A stretch of DNA of 64,000 nt from Stigmatella ashevillena (GTDB taxonomy: Bacteria > Myxococcota > Myxococcia > Myxococcales > Myxococcaceae). The notes under the pieces were generated by a model. It saw only the letters and a list, made by a program, of their open reading frames with translations. It had not been told where the DNA came from and searched no databases. Shown here in pieces: positions 3,995-13,134 of this stretch. Positions within the stretch are counted from its first letter, which is position 1. Each line of letters opens with the position of its first letter. Made by a program: the position numbers and the translations under genes. The stretch spans positions 2,304,007 through 2,368,006 of the forward strand of contig NZ_JAQNDM010000002.1 in assembly GCF_028368975.1 (NCBI RefSeq), read 5' to 3'.

Positions 3995-5323
3995 CTACTC
4001 GACCTGGCAGGAGGGCAACTGGTAGAGGCTGTCCACGTGAGAGGCCGTGGGGGCCTGCAAGCAGCTACCGCCACCGCCGCCGCCACCACCGCCGCCGCCG
4101 CCACCACCGCCGCCGCCGCCGCCACCACCGCCGCCGCCGCCACCACCGCCGCCGCCACCACCGCTACCGCCCGTGCCATCCAACGCCCCCGTGCCACCGA
4201 CCGGCACTCCGGCCGAGCAGGTGAAGTTGAGCGGAACCGAGCCGGTGTTGTTGTAGAGCGTCCAGCTCTTCGTCAGGCCGCTCCACTTGGCGATGGTGAG
4301 CGAGATCTTCTTCTTGATGAACAGGAACTTGATCTTGATGAACGCCTTCAAGCTGCCCGACAGGGTGTTGACGGTGAAGTCCGACTTGAGGTTCCAGTCC
4401 ATGGTGCTGCACCCGGTGGACACCAGTTGCGCGGTGACCGGCAAGCTCGCGCCGATGAGCGTCAGGTTGCCCTCCACGCCCAGGCTCGCCACCGAGATGC
4501 CCACCGCCGCGCTCGCGGACACGTAGACGTTCCCCTTGGGGGTCGCGATCAGCTTGGCCACGGTGGGTGCCATGGAGCCCGTCACCTTGATGCCCGCGTT
4601 GCCATTGAGCGACGCCGTCACCGTCACTGGGATGAACATGATGGGGAAGCTCTTGCTCGCGGACTTGAACGTCCGGTTGAAGAGCTGATCCTCATACAAC
4701 GTGCCCGAGAGCAGATCCTTCGAGTAGATCTGCGAGCCCATCACGTACACGTTGACCTTCGCGCCAGCAAAGGCGTTCTGCTGGCCGGTGCCCGTGGCCC
4801 GGGCGCGCAGCAGCTCGGTCTGGGTAGAGCTGAACACCTTGCCCCACACCTTGCCCTCGGCGATTGCCTCGAGCTTCGCACCCGCGCTGGAGGTGGCCGG
4901 AAGGCCGTTGAGCGACGCATCGATGACGTAGCCAGCCCCGAAGGTGTTGTTGCCGAAGCTGTCATCCTTGTGGAACGCCTTGCTGAAAGGCTGGTTCGCG
5001 GGATTGCTCGCATTGGGGTCCACTTGGACGCCCGGAGGCTCCGTGCCAAGCGATGCATCCGGCGTCTGTCCCTCATCGTTGAAGACGTGCGGGTCTGGGT
5101 CTCCGTATTCCATGCCCGTGGTGCAGACACCCGTGCAGTCTTGGTACATCGCCTGGTTGATCTCGTTGTGGATCTGCACCACCGTGGACGGATCCCCGTA
5201 CACGCTGGTGCCATCATCCAGAATGAGTTCTCGTTCATGGGCGATGAGCGCGTGCGCAGAGCCAGACAGTCCCAGCGATGCCATCGTTCCGATCAATGCG
5301 ACCTTGGGGGATAGACGCGACAT
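3995..5323 (-). CDS. Secreted protein with long polyglycine tract, unknown function
   Basis: This 442-residue protein begins MSRLSPKVALIGTMASLGL with a Sec signal peptide (cleavage near SAHA-LIAHE). The middle 350 residues are beta-rich with many Ala/Thr/Val strands (for example VTVTASLNGNAGIKVTGSM) and few cysteines. Near residues 375-420 there is an almost pure glycine tract, followed by a short tail with two cysteines (SCLQAPTASHVDSLYQLPSC). I recognise no catalytic motif. It precedes the HEAT-repeat gene by 40 bases, suggesting a secreted protein and its anchored partner. The N-terminal half mentions of dates of motifs such as VQIHNEINQAMYQDC do not place it in a family I can name. Confidence 0.7.
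   Translation of the reverse strand: MSRLSPKVALIGTMASLGLSGSAHALIAHERELILDDGTSVYGDPSTVVQIHNEINQAMYQDCTGVCTTGMEYGDPDPHVFNDEGQTPDASLGTEPPGVQVDPNASNPANQPFSKAFHKDDSFGNNTFGAGYVIDASLNGLPATSSAGAKLEAIAEGKVWGKVFSSTQTELLRARATGTGQQNAFAGAKVNVYVMGSQIYSKDLLSGTLYEDQLFNRTFKSASKSFPIMFIPVTVTASLNGNAGIKVTGSMAPTVAKLIATPKGNVYVSASAAVGISVASLGVEGNLTLIGASLPVTAQLVSTGCSTMDWNLKSDFTVNTLSGSLKAFIKIKFLFIKKKISLTIAKWSGLTKSWTLYNNTGSVPLNFTCSAGVPVGGTGALDGTGGSGGGGGGGGGGGGGGGGGGGGGGGGGGGGGGGGSCLQAPTASHVDSLYQLPSCQVE
4068..4172. repeat. Imperfect GCC/ACC triplet tract encoding polyglycine
   Basis: About 105 bases consist almost only of ccg, cca and gcc triplets on the plus strand. Read on the minus strand they encode an uninterrupted run of roughly 35 glycines in the secreted protein. 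The unit is three bases, so slippage would change glycine number without breaking the frame. In the other frames the tract reads as polyproline, polyalanine or polyarginine, which explains several long false reading frames here. Confidence 0.95.
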
Positions 5324-6939: not shown

Positions 6940-8546
6940 CGACGATGACCTGGAACCGCGTGATTGGATATCTGCTCGTGGGCACATTCTGGCTGACCGG
7001 ATGCTCGGAGGATTCAAAGCCCACGGATACTCCAGACGCCGCCTCCCCTGAGAGGGATGCCGGTACCGATGGGGGCAGCGAATGGGATGGCACCTTCGTG
7101 CCGCTCGAAGAGCATGGCAACCGGGTGGACACCGGCCGCTATGCCGCCTGCCATCTCATCGCGGGTGCGGAGCCCTGCGGAGACTTTAACAGCTTTGATC
7201 TGTCCGAGTGTGACGGGGCATCCCTCGCGCAAGCGGGACAGGAAGGCACCTACGCGCTGGCCATGCGCCAGGAGGACAGCACGGGCGCCCGCGTCCACGA
7301 ATTTCCCACCGTCCTGACCCTGGGCGTGGATGGAGGCCCCACGCTGTTCAATGGCAAGCCCACGACAGAACAGCGCCAAGGAAATGCCCGTCTCTTCTCC
7401 ACCTTCACGTCCTCCTCGGATGGCGGCACGCGCCGCGTGTCACTCGCCACCTGCGAATCGCCGCAGGCTCCCGAGTTCACCGGGTGCTACCTGGTCTGTT
7501 CCAACGGACGGCTCACCACCCGGGCCACCTTTCAGTCCGAACGCCTGACATGGGCCCGCGGCGAGTCCGAAGCCTCGGGTTTGGAGCAGGTCTCCGAGCG
7601 TTTCGTGAACCTGGCCATGCCAGCGGATGTGTATGTGACCCAGAACCATGCCTACGTCGTGGGCCTCTCCCGGGACGGCCAGCCTGGAGGACTCAGCGTC
7701 TTCGACGTGAGCGACAAGGCGGCTCCGGTGCACGTGAAGACCTTCCAGTTCCCGGGCGACACGGAATGGAATGGGGTGTGGGCGAAGGACGGCGCACTCT
7801 ACGTGGCGAGTGCCCACCGGGGGGTGCTCCTCTTTGACATCCGCCATCCGGCTGACCCGCAGTTCCTGCGCAGCCTGTCCACCGGCAACGACAGCGTGCA
7901 CACCGTCTTCGTCGAGGGCAATCGCCTCTACGCCACGGACCTCGCGGGGGTGATTCTCTACGACGTCTCCAACGCCCTGGAGCCCATCGAACTCAACCGC
8001 TACGCGCCCTATCCTGGCGTCGACCCGCACGACATGTTCGCCATCGGTGACCGGCTCTATGTCAACTACACTTCAGAAGGCTTTACCGTCGCCGATGTGA
8101 GCGACCCGCAGAACCTCCGGACCCTGGGCGCGTACAACTTTCCCAACCACTACAGCCACGCGAACGCGGTGGGCACCTTCGGGGGCCGCACCATCGCTTT
8201 CACGGGAGGCGAGGGAGCATTCGAACACCTTCGCGTGCTCGACATCACCGAGCCCGCCCACATGGTGAAGATTGGGGTGTTTCAGCTCCGCCCCCTGGTC
8301 TCCATTCACAACATGGTCTTGGTGGGCAAGCGCCTCTATCTCTCCTGGTATCAGGAAGGCGTCCGGGTCCTGGACGTGTCCAATCCCACCCAACCCAGGC
8401 AGGTGGCGTACTTCAACACCTTCCGCGAGAGCTACCCGGGCCGCGGCGGCTACTTCGAGGGCGCCATCGGCATTCGAGTTCCAGGCGATGGGTATATTTA
8501 CACAGTGGACACACTGCGGGGCTTGCTGATCCTGCGAGAGAAGTGA
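6936..8546 (+). CDS. LVIVD-repeat lipoprotein
   Basis: This 536-residue protein starts MTTMTWNRVIGYLLVG and has a lipobox LTGC near residue 30, so it should be a lipoprotein on the cell envelope. The first 220 residues are an unassigned region with several cysteines. From about 230 on there are repeated blades of the LVIVD type, such as GGLSVFDVSDKAAPVHVK, GVLLFDIRHPADPQFLRSL and GVRVLDVSNPTQPRQVAYF, which build a beta-propeller. LVIVD proteins are surface proteins of unknown role. It begins inside the stop codon of the sugar dehydrogenase gene, so the two products are probably made in equal amounts and may act together. Confidence 0.85.
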   Translation: MTTMTWNRVIGYLLVGTFWLTGCSEDSKPTDTPDAASPERDAGTDGGSEWDGTFVPLEEHGNRVDTGRYAACHLIAGAEPCGDFNSFDLSECDGASLAQAGQEGTYALAMRQEDSTGARVHEFPTVLTLGVDGGPTLFNGKPTTEQRQGNARLFSTFTSSSDGGTRRVSLATCESPQAPEFTGCYLVCSNGRLTTRATFQSERLTWARGESEASGLEQVSERFVNLAMPADVYVTQNHAYVVGLSRDGQPGGLSVFDVSDKAAPVHVKTFQFPGDTEWNGVWAKDGALYVASAHRGVLLFDIRHPADPQFLRSLSTGNDSVHTVFVEGNRLYATDLAGVILYDVSNALEPIELNRYAPYPGVDPHDMFAIGDRLYVNYTSEGFTVADVSDPQNLRTLGAYNFPNHYSHANAVGTFGGRTIAFTGGEGAFEHLRVLDITEPAHMVKIGVFQLRPLVSIHNMVLVGKRLYLSWYQEGVRVLDVSNPTQPRQVAYFNTFRESYPGRGGYFEGAIGIRVPGDGYIYTVDTLRGLLILREK

Positions 8547-8560
8547 TCCACGGGGTGACA

Positions 8561-8581
8561 GCCATCACCAGGGGTGATGGC
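8561..8581 (+). terminator. Hairpin after the LVIVD lipoprotein gene
   Basis: A perfect 9-base stem (gccatcacc / ggtgatggc) with a 3-base loop lies 15 bases after the stop codon. There is no run of T after it, so it may be a rho-assisted terminator or an mRNA-stabilising hairpin rather than a classic intrinsic terminator. The rest of the space to 8734 shows no gene. Confidence 0.4.
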
Positions 8582-8734
8582 GGGAGTCACCAGGAGCACA
8601 GGACAGTTATTTCGCTAAAACCATGAAATCATGCTATCCTGGGAGAAGCTGAAATCGGCACGCCAATTGCTTCCGGCGGACCGCGAGGAGGGTGGGCTCA
8701 TCCACCTCATCAGCCAATCTCTAGGAGATCATCA

Positions 8735-9901
8735 ATGTCGCGAATGAAGCTGTTCAGTGGTCTGACCCTTTTGGGTGCTCTGAGTGGGTGCGGTGTCACG
8801 GATTCGAAGACCGCGGAAGAGAGCGGGCAGATCCAGAGCGAAGCCATCGTGTCGAGCATCACGGAGGGGGACTATGTCATCCGCTCCGTCATGACCAACA
8901 AGTGTATCGACGTCGCCTCGTCCAGCACCGCGGACGGCGCCAAGGTACAGCAGTGGGACTGTAACGGCACCAACGCGCAGAAGTTCCGCATCTCCCCGAC
9001 GTCAGGGGGGTATTGGAAGATCATCAACGTCAACAGCGGCAAGGGCCTCGATATCGCTGAAAACAGCACCGCGCAGAACGCCAAGGTCCACCAATGGTCT
9101 TACACCGGTGGAAACAACCAACAGTTCAAGTTCGTGTCCCGGGCCGCCAACCAGTTCAGCATCCAGGTCCGCCACACAGACATGGCCCTTGATCTGTACT
9201 GGGGCTCGGCGAACAACGGCACGGAGTACGTTCAGTACCCGTACACCGGCGCCGCCAACCAGCTCTACACCTTCGACAAGGTGAGCGGCGACTCCGGCGG
9301 CGACACGGGCCGTGGATGCGCCGTCGCCAACGACGGGAAGACCACCCTGCGCTTCATCAACCGGTGCTCCACCGAGATCAACTTCGCCGGCAACAACATC
9401 ACGGGCGGGGCGCTGGGCACGGGCCAGGAAGCGTGCCGGACCATTGGCTCCACCACGGAGATGATGCTGACGAAGCGGTACTGGGGCTTCCGCAAGGGAG
9501 AGGATCCGGGCTTCGAGCACCACTCGCTGGCGGAGTTTGGCTTCAACGAGACGTTCTATTCCTACAACAGCTGGGACTGGTTCAACCTCAGCCACGTGGA
9601 TGCCCACAACCTTCCCCTGAAGATCATTCCCTATGATCTGGCGGGGGCCACGACCTGCACGGGGCAGACGCGGAGCTGCCCCATGGACTTGATCGCCAAC
9701 TGCCCCGCCGAGGGCCAGTGGCGCAACGCCGCCGGCAAGGTCATCTCCTGCGTGAGCCGTGACCGCGACAATCCCAACAGCGTGGTGGCCCGGTACTTCG
9801 ACGCGGCCTGCTCGCAGTCCTACTCGTGGTCCGGCGATGACTCGGTGATGGCGGCGTGCAACGCCGAGGACTTCGACATCGTCTTCTGCCCTGCGAACTG
9901 A
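8735..9901 (+). CDS. Lipoprotein with ricin-type lectin and thaumatin-like domains
   Basis: This 388-residue protein starts after an AGGAGAT site with signal sequence LFSGLTLLGALSGC (lipobox LSGC), so it is probably lipid-anchored. Residues 45-185 are a ricin B-type beta-trefoil, with repeats such as NKCIDVASSSTADGAKVQQW and GKGLDIAENSTAQNAKVHQW (the QxW mark). Residues 195-388 fit the thaumatin-like fold: TLRFINRCSTEINFAG, a DWFNLSHVDAHNLPLKI block, the CPMDLIANCPAE block, and the end DFDIVFCPAN, with many paired cysteines. Thaumatin-like proteins bind or cut beta-1,3-glucans and are mostly known from plants, animals and fungi. A role in binding fungal or polysaccharide prey is inferred from the two sugar-binding folds. 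Confidence 0.8.
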   Translation: MSRMKLFSGLTLLGALSGCGVTDSKTAEESGQIQSEAIVSSITEGDYVIRSVMTNKCIDVASSSTADGAKVQQWDCNGTNAQKFRISPTSGGYWKIINVNSGKGLDIAENSTAQNAKVHQWSYTGGNNQQFKFVSRAANQFSIQVRHTDMALDLYWGSANNGTEYVQYPYTGAANQLYTFDKVSGDSGGDTGRGCAVANDGKTTLRFINRCSTEINFAGNNITGGALGTGQEACRTIGSTTEMMLTKRYWGFRKGEDPGFEHHSLAEFGFNETFYSYNSWDWFNLSHVDAHNLPLKIIPYDLAGATTCTGQTRSCPMDLIANCPAEGQWRNAAGKVISCVSRDRDNPNSVVARYFDAACSQSYSWSGDDSVMAACNAEDFDIVFCPAN

Positions 9902-9914
9902 GCCGTTTCCGGAA

Positions 9915-9940
9915 GGGGGGCCGGGCCCTCTCGGCCCCCC
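9915..9940 (+). terminator. Strong GC hairpin after the ricin-thaumatin gene
   Basis: A 9-base perfect stem (ggggggccg / cggcccccc) closes an 8-base loop, 14 bases after the stop codon. No T-run follows, so this is a terminator-like hairpin only. The remaining sequence to about 10120 shows no gene. Confidence 0.5.
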
Positions 9941-10144
9941 TGGGGCCCTGCTCGAGCGGGGCCTCTCCCTTCGCCCGCATCGGCGCTTGCCTGGCCGCAC
10001 GCTCTCCGAGATCCGTGACAGCCCACCGCCACCCTGCTCTGCCACACGAGGAATATGGCGTTCGCGAGCGGCCTTTCTAGCAGGCTCATTTGAGCCCTCT
10101 CCCCGTCCCAGGGCGAGGCGGTGCGCGGAGGGAGACGACTCGTG

Positions 10145-11875
10145 ATGCAGCAGGTTGGCAAGTATCAGCTCATCCGCAAGCTCGCCATGGGAGGCATGGC
10201 TGAGGTGCACCTCGCGAAGGCCGCAGGGCCGCGAGGGTTCGAGAAGACGCTGGTGGTCAAATGCATCCTGCCGCATCTGGCCCAGGAGCCCTCCTTCGTG
10301 GAGATGTTCCTCTCCGAGGCGATGCTGGCGGCCCAGCTCACCCATACCCACATCGTTCAGATCTTCGACTTCGGCGAGGCCGACGGCGCCTACTTCCTGG
10401 CCATGGAGTACATCGACGGGCCGAGCCTGCGCACGCTCATCAAGCGAGCCTCGGCCCAGGATCTGCCTTTGTCACCCACGGTGTGTGCCCGGCTCGTCTC
10501 CCAGGCCTGTGAGGGACTGGCCTTTGCCCACGACTTCGCGGATCCGGTGACGGAACAGCCCTTGGGGCTCATCCACCGGGACGTCAGTCCGGACAACATC
10601 CTGTTGTCACGCCAGGGGTCCGTGAAGGTGGTGGACTTTGGCATCGCCAAGGCGGCGGGCCAGACCCACAAGACGCAGAGTGGGGTCATCAAAGGCAAGC
10701 TCGCGTACATGCCGCCCGAGCAGCTACGGGGCAAGAGCCTGGACCGGCGCGTGGATGTCTATGCGCTCGGGGTGGTCCTCTACGAGTTGCTCACGTTCCG
10801 CAAACCGTACAGCGCGACCTCCGATGCGGCGCTGATGCACGCCATCATCTATGAGGCCCCCACGCCCGCGGTGCACCACCGGCCAGACTTACCCGTGGCC
10901 TTGCAGCGCATCCTCGCTCGGGCCATCACCAAGGACCGGGATCAGCGGTATCCCGACTGCCACGCCTTTCAATCGGATTTGGAGGACTTCATCCTCTCCG
11001 AGGGCCGCTCCGTGACGGCGCAGCAGGTGGCCCATCTCATCCAGCGGGCCACCTCGGGCGCGGGCCTCCCCGCGGTGAACCTCGCCCCCGCTGCGTCTCC
11101 CAGTCCTTCCCCGGCGTTCGTGCCACCTCTGGAGGCCTCCGCCCCTTCCAAGGGCAGGACAGGCTTGGACACGTTCTCCGAGATGGTCCCCCTTCCAGGC
11201 GGTGAAGAGGCCTCGGAAGAGCGCACGACATTCCCCGAGTACAGCGCGGCGACCCAGGAATTGTCCCTCACCCTCCCGCCGTCTGTTTCAGGGTTGGTGG
11301 AGCCGCATCAACCGGCGCGGACCCGCTTGCACAGCGCCTTCTCCGGGTGGAAACGGCATGTCCTCGTGGGCGGAGTGCTGCTCGCTGCGGGGGGGGGATT
11401 CGCGCGTTGCCAGCAGGCCCCTCGTGAAGAGCCTTTGAACCCTCTGGCCATCGCATCCGCCGCGGCGCCGCCCGCTGCTGCTCTTCCTCCACGGCTGGAG
11501 CCACCGCCTCTGGCCGTGGCCCCGCTCATCGAGGAACCGGCCGCCACCCCTGAACCCCCTCCTCTCCCAGTTGCCGAGACCCTAACGCCACAGGCCACCG
11601 AGCCTGCTCCCGTCGCCCGTAAACGCACCGCGCGCCCCTCCAAGACCAAACGCGCAACCCCTGTCGCCATGGGCACTTTGGATGTCCGCTCGCAGCCCTA
11701 TGCCATCGTCTACGTGGACGGAGAGGAACGCGGAAAGACTCCCTTGGACAATGTGGTGGAACTGTCGGCCGGTTTCCACACCCTGAAACTGGTCATCCCG
11801 GATCTACCGAAAACAGTGACCCAGCAGGTCGAAGTGAAACCCGGCAAGCTCTCCCGCATTAATTTCTCGCCGTAG
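10145..11875 (+). CDS. Ser/Thr protein kinase with transmembrane segment and C-terminal PEGA domain
   Basis: From the ATG at 10145 this is 576 residues; GTG 10142 is an equally possible start, both behind GGAGGGAG. The kinase domain covers about residues 5-285. It has glycine loop MGGMAEV, Lys39, Glu58, catalytic loop HRDVSPDN (Asp146), DFG at 164-166 and MPPEQ. It is therefore complete and probably active. A low-complexity Pro/Ser linker follows, then one transmembrane segment ([15 protein letters not shown]). A Pro/Ala-rich extracytoplasmic stretch leads to a PEGA domain at the end ([19 protein letters not shown]). Such PEGA-tailed kinases are typical of myxobacterial development and stress signalling. 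The target is unknown. It is convergent with the RCC1 gene. Confidence 0.92.
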
Positions 11876-11916: not shown

Positions 11917-13134
11917 TTAGTTCAAACAGAACGACAAGACAGGCGCGGGGACAGGGATGATGCCCAGCGGCAAATTCGGCATTTCCGGAATCAAGAGGCG
12001 AACCCATTCCGTGCGCACACCGAGCCGTTCGTTCTTGTTTGCACCCCAGGCAAACAGGCAGCCATTGCTCAATACGGCCAGCGAATGCGCGTGACCCGCG
12101 GAGATGGACAGGGCGCTGGTCACGGAGGGGGCGACCGCCACGGGCCGCAGTTGCTCCTGGGGCTCCACGTCATCGCCCAGTTGCCCCGCTGAATCGGCCC
12201 CCCAGGCCATGACTTCATTGTCCCTGTTCAAGGCCAAGGAATGAAAGGTGCCCGCAGCCAGCGCCGTGATTCCTTCCAAACCTTGGACCTGTATTGGAAG
12301 CGCTCGCGAACTGCTCTTGGTACCATCGCCCAATTGGCCCGCTTCATTGGCCCCCCAGGCCCAGACCCCGCCCTGCATGTCCAGCGCAAGCGAATGATTG
12401 AAACCAGCGGCAATGGACTTGATCTCCGGTAGTCCCTCCACCCTCACAGGCGTGACGCTGACCTCCAGGTTGTCCTTGCCCAACTGGCGCATGCTGTTGT
12501 CTCCCCATGCCCAGACCGCGCCTTTGTCATCCAAGGCCAGAAGGTGCGCGCCGCCAGCAGCAATGGCATCAATTTGCGGCAGCCCCTTCATGATACTCGG
12601 CTTGTCACTTTCCTGCTTCGCACTATCGACTCCCCAGACCCAGACCGAACCCGACTGGTGCAGTGCCAGCGACTGAAGATTGCCCGCGGCGACGGCAATG
12701 ATGTCACTCAACTCCGGAACTTCCGTGGGCGTCATCCGGATCTCACCCGATCCGATTTGTCCCCATCTCCAGACTTTCCCACCCCCCATCGCGAGCGAGT
12801 GGCCATAACCCGCGGCCACGGACTTGATACCACTCAGGCCCTTCAGCTTCGTGGGCCTTGCGCGATCCTGGAGCGTTCCATCTCCCAGTTGAGCCGTGGT
12901 GTTTTGTCCCCATGCCCAGACCGAACCATCGTTTCCGATGGCCAGGATGTGCTGCTCTCGAGAGGAAACCTGATCAATACCAGTCGGCTCGTCACCAGAT
13001 GTATCAGGCTCCTTCTGGCACGTCTCAGCATGGCGCTGACAGTAATCGTCCTGCGCCTTGTTGAAGTCCGCGCACCCCCATGCAGCGGCGATGGCGCCAG
13101 CCCATGCGAGCCACACAGCCTGTTTCACGGCCAC
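11917..13134 (-). CDS. RCC1-repeat lipoprotein
   Basis: This 405-residue protein has a signal ending in AAAWGC, a plausible lipobox. The rest is made of seven RCC1-type blades, each with the pattern VWAWGxN...GQLGDG (for example WAWGQNTTAQLGDGTLQDRA and GVWAWGANEAGQLGDGT). It should fold as a seven-bladed beta-propeller on the cell surface. Bacterial RCC1 lipoproteins have no known reaction and probably bind partners. Its start overlaps the end of the upstream gene by 10 bases, which points to co-translation with that protein. It converges on the kinase gene with only 41 bases between them. Confidence 0.88.
   Translation of the reverse strand: MAVKQAVWLAWAGAIAAAWGCADFNKAQDDYCQRHAETCQKEPDTSGDEPTGIDQVSSREQHILAIGNDGSVWAWGQNTTAQLGDGTLQDRARPTKLKGLSGIKSVAAGYGHSLAMGGGKVWRWGQIGSGEIRMTPTEVPELSDIIAVAAGNLQSLALHQSGSVWVWGVDSAKQESDKPSIMKGLPQIDAIAAGGAHLLALDDKGAVWAWGDNSMRQLGKDNLEVSVTPVRVEGLPEIKSIAAGFNHSLALDMQGGVWAWGANEAGQLGDGTKSSSRALPIQVQGLEGITALAAGTFHSLALNRDNEVMAWGADSAGQLGDDVEPQEQLRPVAVAPSVTSALSISAGHAHSLAVLSNGCLFAWGANKNERLGVRTEWVRLLIPEMPNLPLGIIPVPAPVLSFCLN

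Follow-up and report, generated by a model that had tools for sequence, protein, structure and literature searches.

The stretch of DNA analysed here (the window, 64 kb in full) encodes on its forward strand a 388-residue protein that joins a lipoprotein-type signal peptide, a ricin-type lectin and a thaumatin-like (TLP) domain. Its architecture, fold and conservation, and the cassette and motifs that it shares with other genes, were computed here. The gene and its control region contain the following features:

8554-8594, forward strand: enhancer-like repeats GGTGACA...TCACCAGG, similar to repeats 5' of the lectin-chitinase gene
8657-8671, forward strand: sigma-54-type (-24/-12) promoter element GGCACGCCAATTGCT, from a pattern match and the upstream regions of orthologs
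8735-9901, forward strand: coding sequence of the lectin-thaumatin lipoprotein, ATG start, 388 residues plus stop, full-length orthologs known
8735-8791, forward strand: signal peptide with lipobox L-S-G-C, from the sequence and the invariance of Cys19, which is presumably lipidated
8843-9289, forward strand: ricin-type beta-trefoil lectin, residues 37-185, three repeats (PF14200 and PF00652, signature residues, AlphaFold2)
9308-9898, forward strand: thaumatin-like domain, residues 192-388, 10 cysteines (PF00314, PDB sequence matches, AlphaFold2 model, fold comparison)

The first-pass annotation had read the open reading frame at 8735-9901 as a lipoprotein with a ricin-type lectin and a thaumatin-like domain, and the lipobox and the matches to PF14200 and PF00314 bore this out. 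The frame is a real gene and no chance open reading frame, since 13 of the 96 family genomes, its own included, carry a full-length ortholog (77-100% identical among the matches listed; one from Pyxidicoccus fallax) and dN/dS was 0.12-0.42 in seven ortholog comparisons. The signal peptide ends in ...LGALSGC, and its Cys19 is invariant in all 13 aligned proteins. Of the 13 orthologous genes, 12 gave a script match to the lipobox 5' of the lectin; the exception, at L011, reads ...GMSGC by eye, a form outside the regular expression. Cys19 would presumably carry the lipid that places the protein at the cell surface.

The lectin matched RicinB_lectin_2 (PF14200) in three stretches (159.7 bits, E 2.9e-47), and each of the three repeats carries a D...Q...N/Q signature, whose residues we take to be sugar contacts. 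D59/Q72/Q82, D106/Q120/N128/Q130 and D153/Q167/N175/Q176 are identical in 13 of 13 orthologs; N80 is kept in 12 (one N80T), and W74 is replaced by Tyr in three. An NCBIfam scan of four proteins returned lectin models only, below their cut-offs, in three of them and none in the fourth.

No conserved operon partner emerged from the surroundings: among 10 loci in other genomes, synteny was kept in two, each from the genus of the window, and an eleventh locus in the comparison was the TLP-only gene of the own genome. The neighbourhood was retained in two of three same-genus loci, the third (G037) sharing one neighbor, and in none of seven loci from other genera. On the reverse strand of the window, positions 3995-5323 encode a 442-residue protein with a long glycine run near its C-terminus, overlapped by misleading Ala/Val- and His/Arg-rich reading frames. 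Positions 11917-13134, also on the reverse strand, show RCC1-like repeats by eye and adjoin a protein kinase gene at 10121-11875.

The Pfam match to the Thaumatin family (PF00314, 52.2 bits, E 8.1e-14, cut-off 27.4) was confined to residues 263-386, and we therefore tested the fold by structure prediction. In a first AlphaFold model of the full-length protein, built with 13 close orthologs, the lectin was usable (pLDDT about 68-85 over residues 41-180) and the TLP part stayed under a pLDDT of 50. The AlphaFold2 model of residues 192-388 reached a mean pLDDT of 78.3 and a pTM of 0.81, with 50 of the 197 residues at pLDDT 50-70. The alignment behind it held 31 rows, comprising 16 close TLP domains, 11 remote TLPs from Myxococcota and four GH64-type modules. 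A good model needed the 15 remote TLP or GH64-type rows, 11 of which had been found with PF00314.

In VIA-align comparisons, the model matched osmotin, zeamatin, thaumatin, PR-5d, a Puccinia TLP and an Amycolatopsis TLP at Z 18.0-19.3, with an rmsd of 1.9-2.7 Å over 161-181 residues and model residues 10/12 to 195/197 aligned; GH64 glucanases followed at Z 9.6-11.4. Foldseek placed PDB 7p22, a TLP from Amycolatopsis rifamycinica, at the top, with an E-value of 2.9e-13. A phmmer search of the PDB with the window domain alone, a ranking independent of the 31-row alignment, also gave 7p22 first (E 4.5e-12), with zeamatin second (E 2.7e-8), and a second PDB sequence search again put 7p22 best (E 1.6e-13). 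The 31-row profile recovered 26 TLP and two GH64 chains at E-values up to 0.01, a result that is not independent, 11 of its rows having been found with PF00314. A thaumatin fold in residues 192-388 is close to certain. The first-pass annotation had staked its proposal on residues 195-388 matching this fold and had suggested osmotin for comparison; at a pTM of 0.81, the predicted structure did match, with a Z of about 19 against osmotin.

The domain is 197 residues long, and its 10 cysteines are invariant among the aligned orthologs. Small TLPs of about 150 residues and large plant TLPs with 16 cysteines are the forms described in the available text of PMC3048497. The window domain corresponds to neither: the large plant-type PR-5 form has 16 cysteines in eight disulfides, and the small form has 10 cysteines in about 150 residues with a large deletion. 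The description of the fold as complete with its cysteine-rich blocks thus stands for the thaumatin fold, which is full, and not for the cysteines, of which there are 10 rather than the 16 of large plant TLPs.

The proposed acidic (REDDD) cleft was found in part. In the sequence alignment, E84, D102 and the final DD pair of zeamatin correspond to E267, D289 and D368/D369 of the window protein. E267 and D289 are invariant in the 13 orthologs, and the cleft Glu (E267) is invariant across all 31 rows, GH64-type modules included. One Asp is lost: the position of zeamatin D97 is Asn284, with Asn in 13 of 13 orthologs. For the Arg, the alignments differ: one points to R248 and another to R253, a residue that one ortholog replaces by Ala.

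Among known proteins, 7p22 is the closest to the window domain by both PDB sequence match and Foldseek. The five cysteines of the domain's second half align one to one and the cysteine spacing is much alike, whereas identity is 28% over 181 residues and the solved chain, at 244 residues, is too short to hold a lectin as well. The two clefts also differ: in 7p22 the first Asp is present and the second is replaced by Asn, and the window protein shows the opposite arrangement. Plant PR-5 proteins (osmotin, zeamatin, PR-5d and thaumatin) share the fold at Z 18-19 and align at E84, D102 and the DD pair; they differ in having 16 cysteines to the window domain's 10, in zeamatin D97 where the window protein has Asn284, and in an identity of 21-28%, and the window domain is joined to a lectin in a predicted lipoprotein. 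The GH64 beta-1,3-glucanases of the GH64-TLP superfamily are structural kin, but the window protein lacks a Glyco_hydro_64 match.

A further parallel comes from two Streptomyces plasmid proteins in which a TLP is joined to a carbohydrate-active module, Glyco_hydro_cc (PF11790), which we take to be GH128, a family of beta-1,3-glucanases. Here the TLP comes first and the enzyme second, no lectin was matched, and identity is about 30%. Both proteins (L064:3605-5182 and L065:3662-5206) are annotated "glycosyl hydrolase", and their N-terminal thaumatin domains score 106 and 100 bits. Four of five plasmid records with a TLP match carry a glycosyl hydrolase annotation.

PF00314 matches occurred in 31 of 195 Myxococcota genomes and in none of 14 controls. 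Together with 7p22, they show that bacterial TLPs were already known and qualify the view of TLPs as mainly eukaryotic. A TLP-only protein (C2:9851955, 77% identity) that has a lipobox-like sequence at its N-terminus is also encoded in the window's own genome. Another genus of the family has very large, Cys-rich thaumatin proteins, with frames of 736-816 residues and long insertions in the fold (L034, L035, L036, L038, L041, L048, L052, L054, L055 and L057). A recent gene transfer from plants or fungi was not supported, the best sequence relatives being actinobacterial in the sets searched. A phage origin was set aside, with just one weak, lectin-only match among 50,697 phage records, and so was a plasmid origin, with distant TLP matches in two of 72,556 plasmid records, both from Streptomyces. 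None of 15 candidate stretches in viral contigs was confirmed.

The lectin recurs in front of other effector domains. In the window's own genome, the lectin of a GH19 chitinase lipoprotein is 82% identical to the window lectin (87% over the trimmed lectin) and that of a GH64-type lipoprotein is 78% identical; the next lectin is at 38%. The former protein is a class I chitinase (Glyco_hydro_19, PF00182, 152.9 bits), and the latter matches Glyco_hydro_64 (PF16483, 56.7 bits) and also PF00314 (30.7 bits). Counting strong lectin matches with a lectin at least 58% identical, this lipobox-lectin cassette occurs in at least 59 genes of at least 44 genomes among the 96 family genomes searched; these counts are lower bounds, as scoring in 14 of the 96 genomes was limited to 20 candidates. 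The effector is GH19 in at least 41 genes, a TLP in at least 13 and GH64-type in at least four, and one gene is truncated where its contig stops. The GH19 form accompanies the TLP form in at least 11 of 13 genomes, and all three forms are present in at least four, the window's own included. GH64-type domains were found in 14 of 195 genomes of the phylum in all, and N-terminal parts were classified for the four on the lectin cassette. The gene directly 5' of the lectin-chitinase gene (L079:55-1218; own genome C1, about 290 kb) encodes a ricin lectin together with a ThuA-like domain.

The lectin tree mixes effector types, the TLP label needing five changes over 59 rows and four over the 56 rows that remain when two G035 rows and the contig-end G027 row are left out. 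Well-supported branches force two TLP-label changes in the 59-lectin tree, one such pair including the long G035 row, and one change in the 56-row tree, where none of 200 bootstrap trees has a single change. In both trees the effector labels cluster far more strongly than after shuffling, and 18 forks are open in each. In G004 and G007, of the same genus, the TLP and chitinase lectins are about 94-95% identical in DNA. This likeness, together with the mixed tree, suggests lectin exchange or gene conversion between effector gene types, which the tree itself does not force. We withdrew exchange as a firm claim, since without the G035 and G027 rows the supported branches allow a single TLP origin.

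Upstream of the gene, the GGCAYRNNNNTTGCW pattern has its single match in the 64-kb window at 8657-8671, where 0.27 matches are expected and one or more turn up in 23 of 100 shuffles. We named the element on the GG-N10-GC (-24/-12) consensus, which we take to mark a sigma-54 promoter. A score of at least 11/12 was reached, at -71 to -82, in 9 of 13 lectin-TLP upstream regions (0.23% in shuffles) and in 6 of 41 GH19 upstream regions, all six from the window's genus. Below that score, and hence counted as lacking the element, were four of the 13 TLP and 35 of the 41 GH19 genes, as well as all four GH64-type and all three TLP-only upstream regions. A promoter and terminator scan of 8400-10200 returned no sigma-70-type or terminator-like sites. 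The sequence TGTCACC/GGTGACA occurs 18 times 5' of the 15 positive genes (0.6 in shuffles), being present in 11 of them and missing in exact form from four. The orthologs in these promoter and repeat counts are non-independent samples, and the motif was first seen by eye on the upstream regions and tested afterwards, which makes the test post hoc. From the promoter element, the lectin-TLP gene would be under sigma-54 control.

Genome-wide, the pattern TCACCAG-N45..75-GGCAYRNNNNWTGCW matched three places in the window's own 10.95-Mb genome, two of which are the lectin-chitinase and lectin-TLP genes; the reversed control gave no match in this genome. The third place (G000:C2:2893430), whose neighboring frames look LysR- and isochorismatase-like by eye, is probably a chance match. 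The repeat-plus-promoter scan marked three places in G037 (the lectin-chitinase, lectin-TLP and M4 protease genes), two in G038 (the chitinase and M4 protease genes) and none in G034. In the M4 gene of the own genome, the -12 box is one base off and the exact TCACCAG is absent. Looser patterns added a gene whose product has a TLP-like C-terminus free of cysteines and one for a 383-residue repeat-rich protein without a Pfam match. The reversed control had one match (G037) in one looser scan and none in all other scans. When the pattern included both palindrome arms, it matched in two of seven genomes of the genus, the own genome not among them. Three matches (L148, L160 and L166) have other or doubtful frames behind the motif.

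Several of the genes behind the motif encode proteins worth describing. The thermolysin-like M4 protease (L140:1656-3092 in G037, L139 in G038 and the own-genome ortholog at C2:3984297) has no evident classical signal peptide by eye, and the control motif lies 5' of it in G037 and G038. In the product of L149:1684-2682 (own genome C1:144658 onward; ortholog L163), the thaumatin-like C-terminus contains no cysteine; this protein likewise has no evident signal peptide, and its gene lies behind a repeat and a sigma-54-type element like those of the lectin-TLP gene. It scores 26.9 bits against PF00314, just under the cut-off of 27.4, and a 61%-identical homolog (L062) passes it at 29.4. A Gly/Ala-rich family of 383-400 residues (L154, L150, L155 and L167) also stands behind the lectin-TLP-type control motif; one member was scanned and had no Pfam match.

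We propose that the product is probably a surface lipoprotein that grips or attacks fungal walls by binding wall beta-glucan. The lipid anchor would hold the protein on the myxobacterium, probably at the outer membrane, or on its vesicles; the lectin would attach to glycans of the wall; and the thaumatin-like domain would bind, and possibly cut, beta-1,3-glucan in its acidic cleft. The protein would be one of three effector kinds built on the same cassette and would be deployed together with its sister chitinase, both genes lying under a like control region of the sigma-54 plus enhancer type. This reading draws support from the presence of the cassette on a class I chitinase and a GH64-type module, from the promoter and enhancer-like motifs held in common with the chitinase gene, and from the Streptomyces proteins that fuse a bacterial TLP with a glycosyl hydrolase domain. 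The lectin does not itself name the target, because ricin lectins bind many sugars. We infer the glycan specificity, the fungal target and binding rather than catalysis, and we hold the fungal target with moderate confidence. Asn284 in the cleft, the Arg without a fixed place and the absence of the promoter element from many cassette genes count against the proposal, as do the four positive genes without an exact repeat and the poorly kept gene neighbourhood.

According to the available text of a review (PMC10800785), myxobacteria use glucanases and chitinases in preying on fungi. The single functional anchor for our reading is a secretome study of Corallococcus silvisoli, in which only C25GH19A, the one of three GH19 enzymes that bears a CBM13 module, was chitin-induced (PMC10875029). 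By architecture and family, C25GH19A may be the ortholog of the lectin-GH19 proteins found here. These clade I chitinases resemble the window protein by architecture, in their plan of ricin lectin plus effector, and the lectin-GH19 proteins of the searched genomes have the very lipobox-lectin cassette of the window protein; the effector of C25GH19A, however, is GH19 and not a TLP. In the main text of PMC10875029 the word "lipoprotein" does not appear, and neither a TLP form nor a shared promoter is mentioned in the passages and sections consulted.

It is possible, though we think it unlikely, that the protein acts instead on bacterial prey or on the organism's own matrix, binding bacterial surface glycans, or exopolysaccharide during swarming or fruiting. 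Myxobacteria prey on bacteria too, sigma-54 control is common for their developmental genes, and the putative regulon includes products that are not fungus-specific, namely the M4 protease (in two related genomes) and the repeat-rich protein of no known Pfam family. The available text of PMC9098779 adds that a myxobacterial GH19 enzyme, C25GH19B, is a lysozyme. That enzyme, however, is a member of the other GH19 clade without an appended module, and in this strain it is the ricin-lectin enzyme of clade I that chitin induces (PMC10875029). The chitinase and GH64 families of the cassette, moreover, are described for chitin and beta-1,3-glucan, which are fungal-wall polymers.

Two further alternatives concern the TLP domain itself. 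It could be a working beta-1,3-glucanase rather than just a binder, with E267 and D289 as the GH64 acid pair; these residues stand at what we take to be the GH64 catalytic positions. Both are invariant in the 13 orthologs, the Glu also across the 31 rows with their GH64-type modules, and the model matches GH64 enzymes at Z 9.6-11.4. Yet Pfam gave no PF16483 match for the window protein at E-values up to 1, GH64 enzymes have a larger second domain, and most TLPs with this acid pair are regarded as inactive or weak enzymes; we consider catalysis quite improbable. An inhibitor of foreign hydrolases that shields the predator's own polysaccharides, in the manner of the wheat thaumatin-fold xylanase inhibitor TLXI, is the least credible of all. 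TLXI does appear in the fold list, at Z 11.1, a far poorer match than the full-size TLPs (about 19); in addition, three cleft acids are kept and the sister proteins on the same cassette bear hydrolase-type modules.

Bacterial TLPs and myxobacterial CBM13-GH19 chitinases are already known, the CBM13-GH19 plan having been in print since 2024 (PMC10875029). Our search of the open-licence literature found neither the lectin-TLP lipoprotein architecture, nor the three-way cassette, nor the shared control region; it found no paper on a thaumatin in myxobacteria by title, and none on 7p22. Returning to the proposed attack on fungal walls, we tentatively suggest, as a possibility short of an expectation, that large-genome myxobacteria hold a parallel of the plant PR arsenal, in which a lipid-anchored lectin label carries interchangeable fungal-wall modules. 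The plant counterparts would be PR-5 thaumatin, a PR-2-like glucanase and a PR-3-like class I chitinase; exchange between genes would keep the label uniform or swap it; and the TLP, the chitinase, the M4 protease and the cysteine-free TLP would answer to one sigma-54 activator reading GGTGACA...TGTCACC.

What had looked like an isolated oddity, a thaumatin in a bacterium, thereby becomes a testable system, in which one lectin cassette carries three wall-directed modules and the promoter has pointed to a candidate regulon. Its members are clear candidates for the recognition and attack of fungi by myxobacteria, and offer a lead for antifungal lectin fusions. The system may also be a case of bacteria combining protein folds that plants use against fungi.
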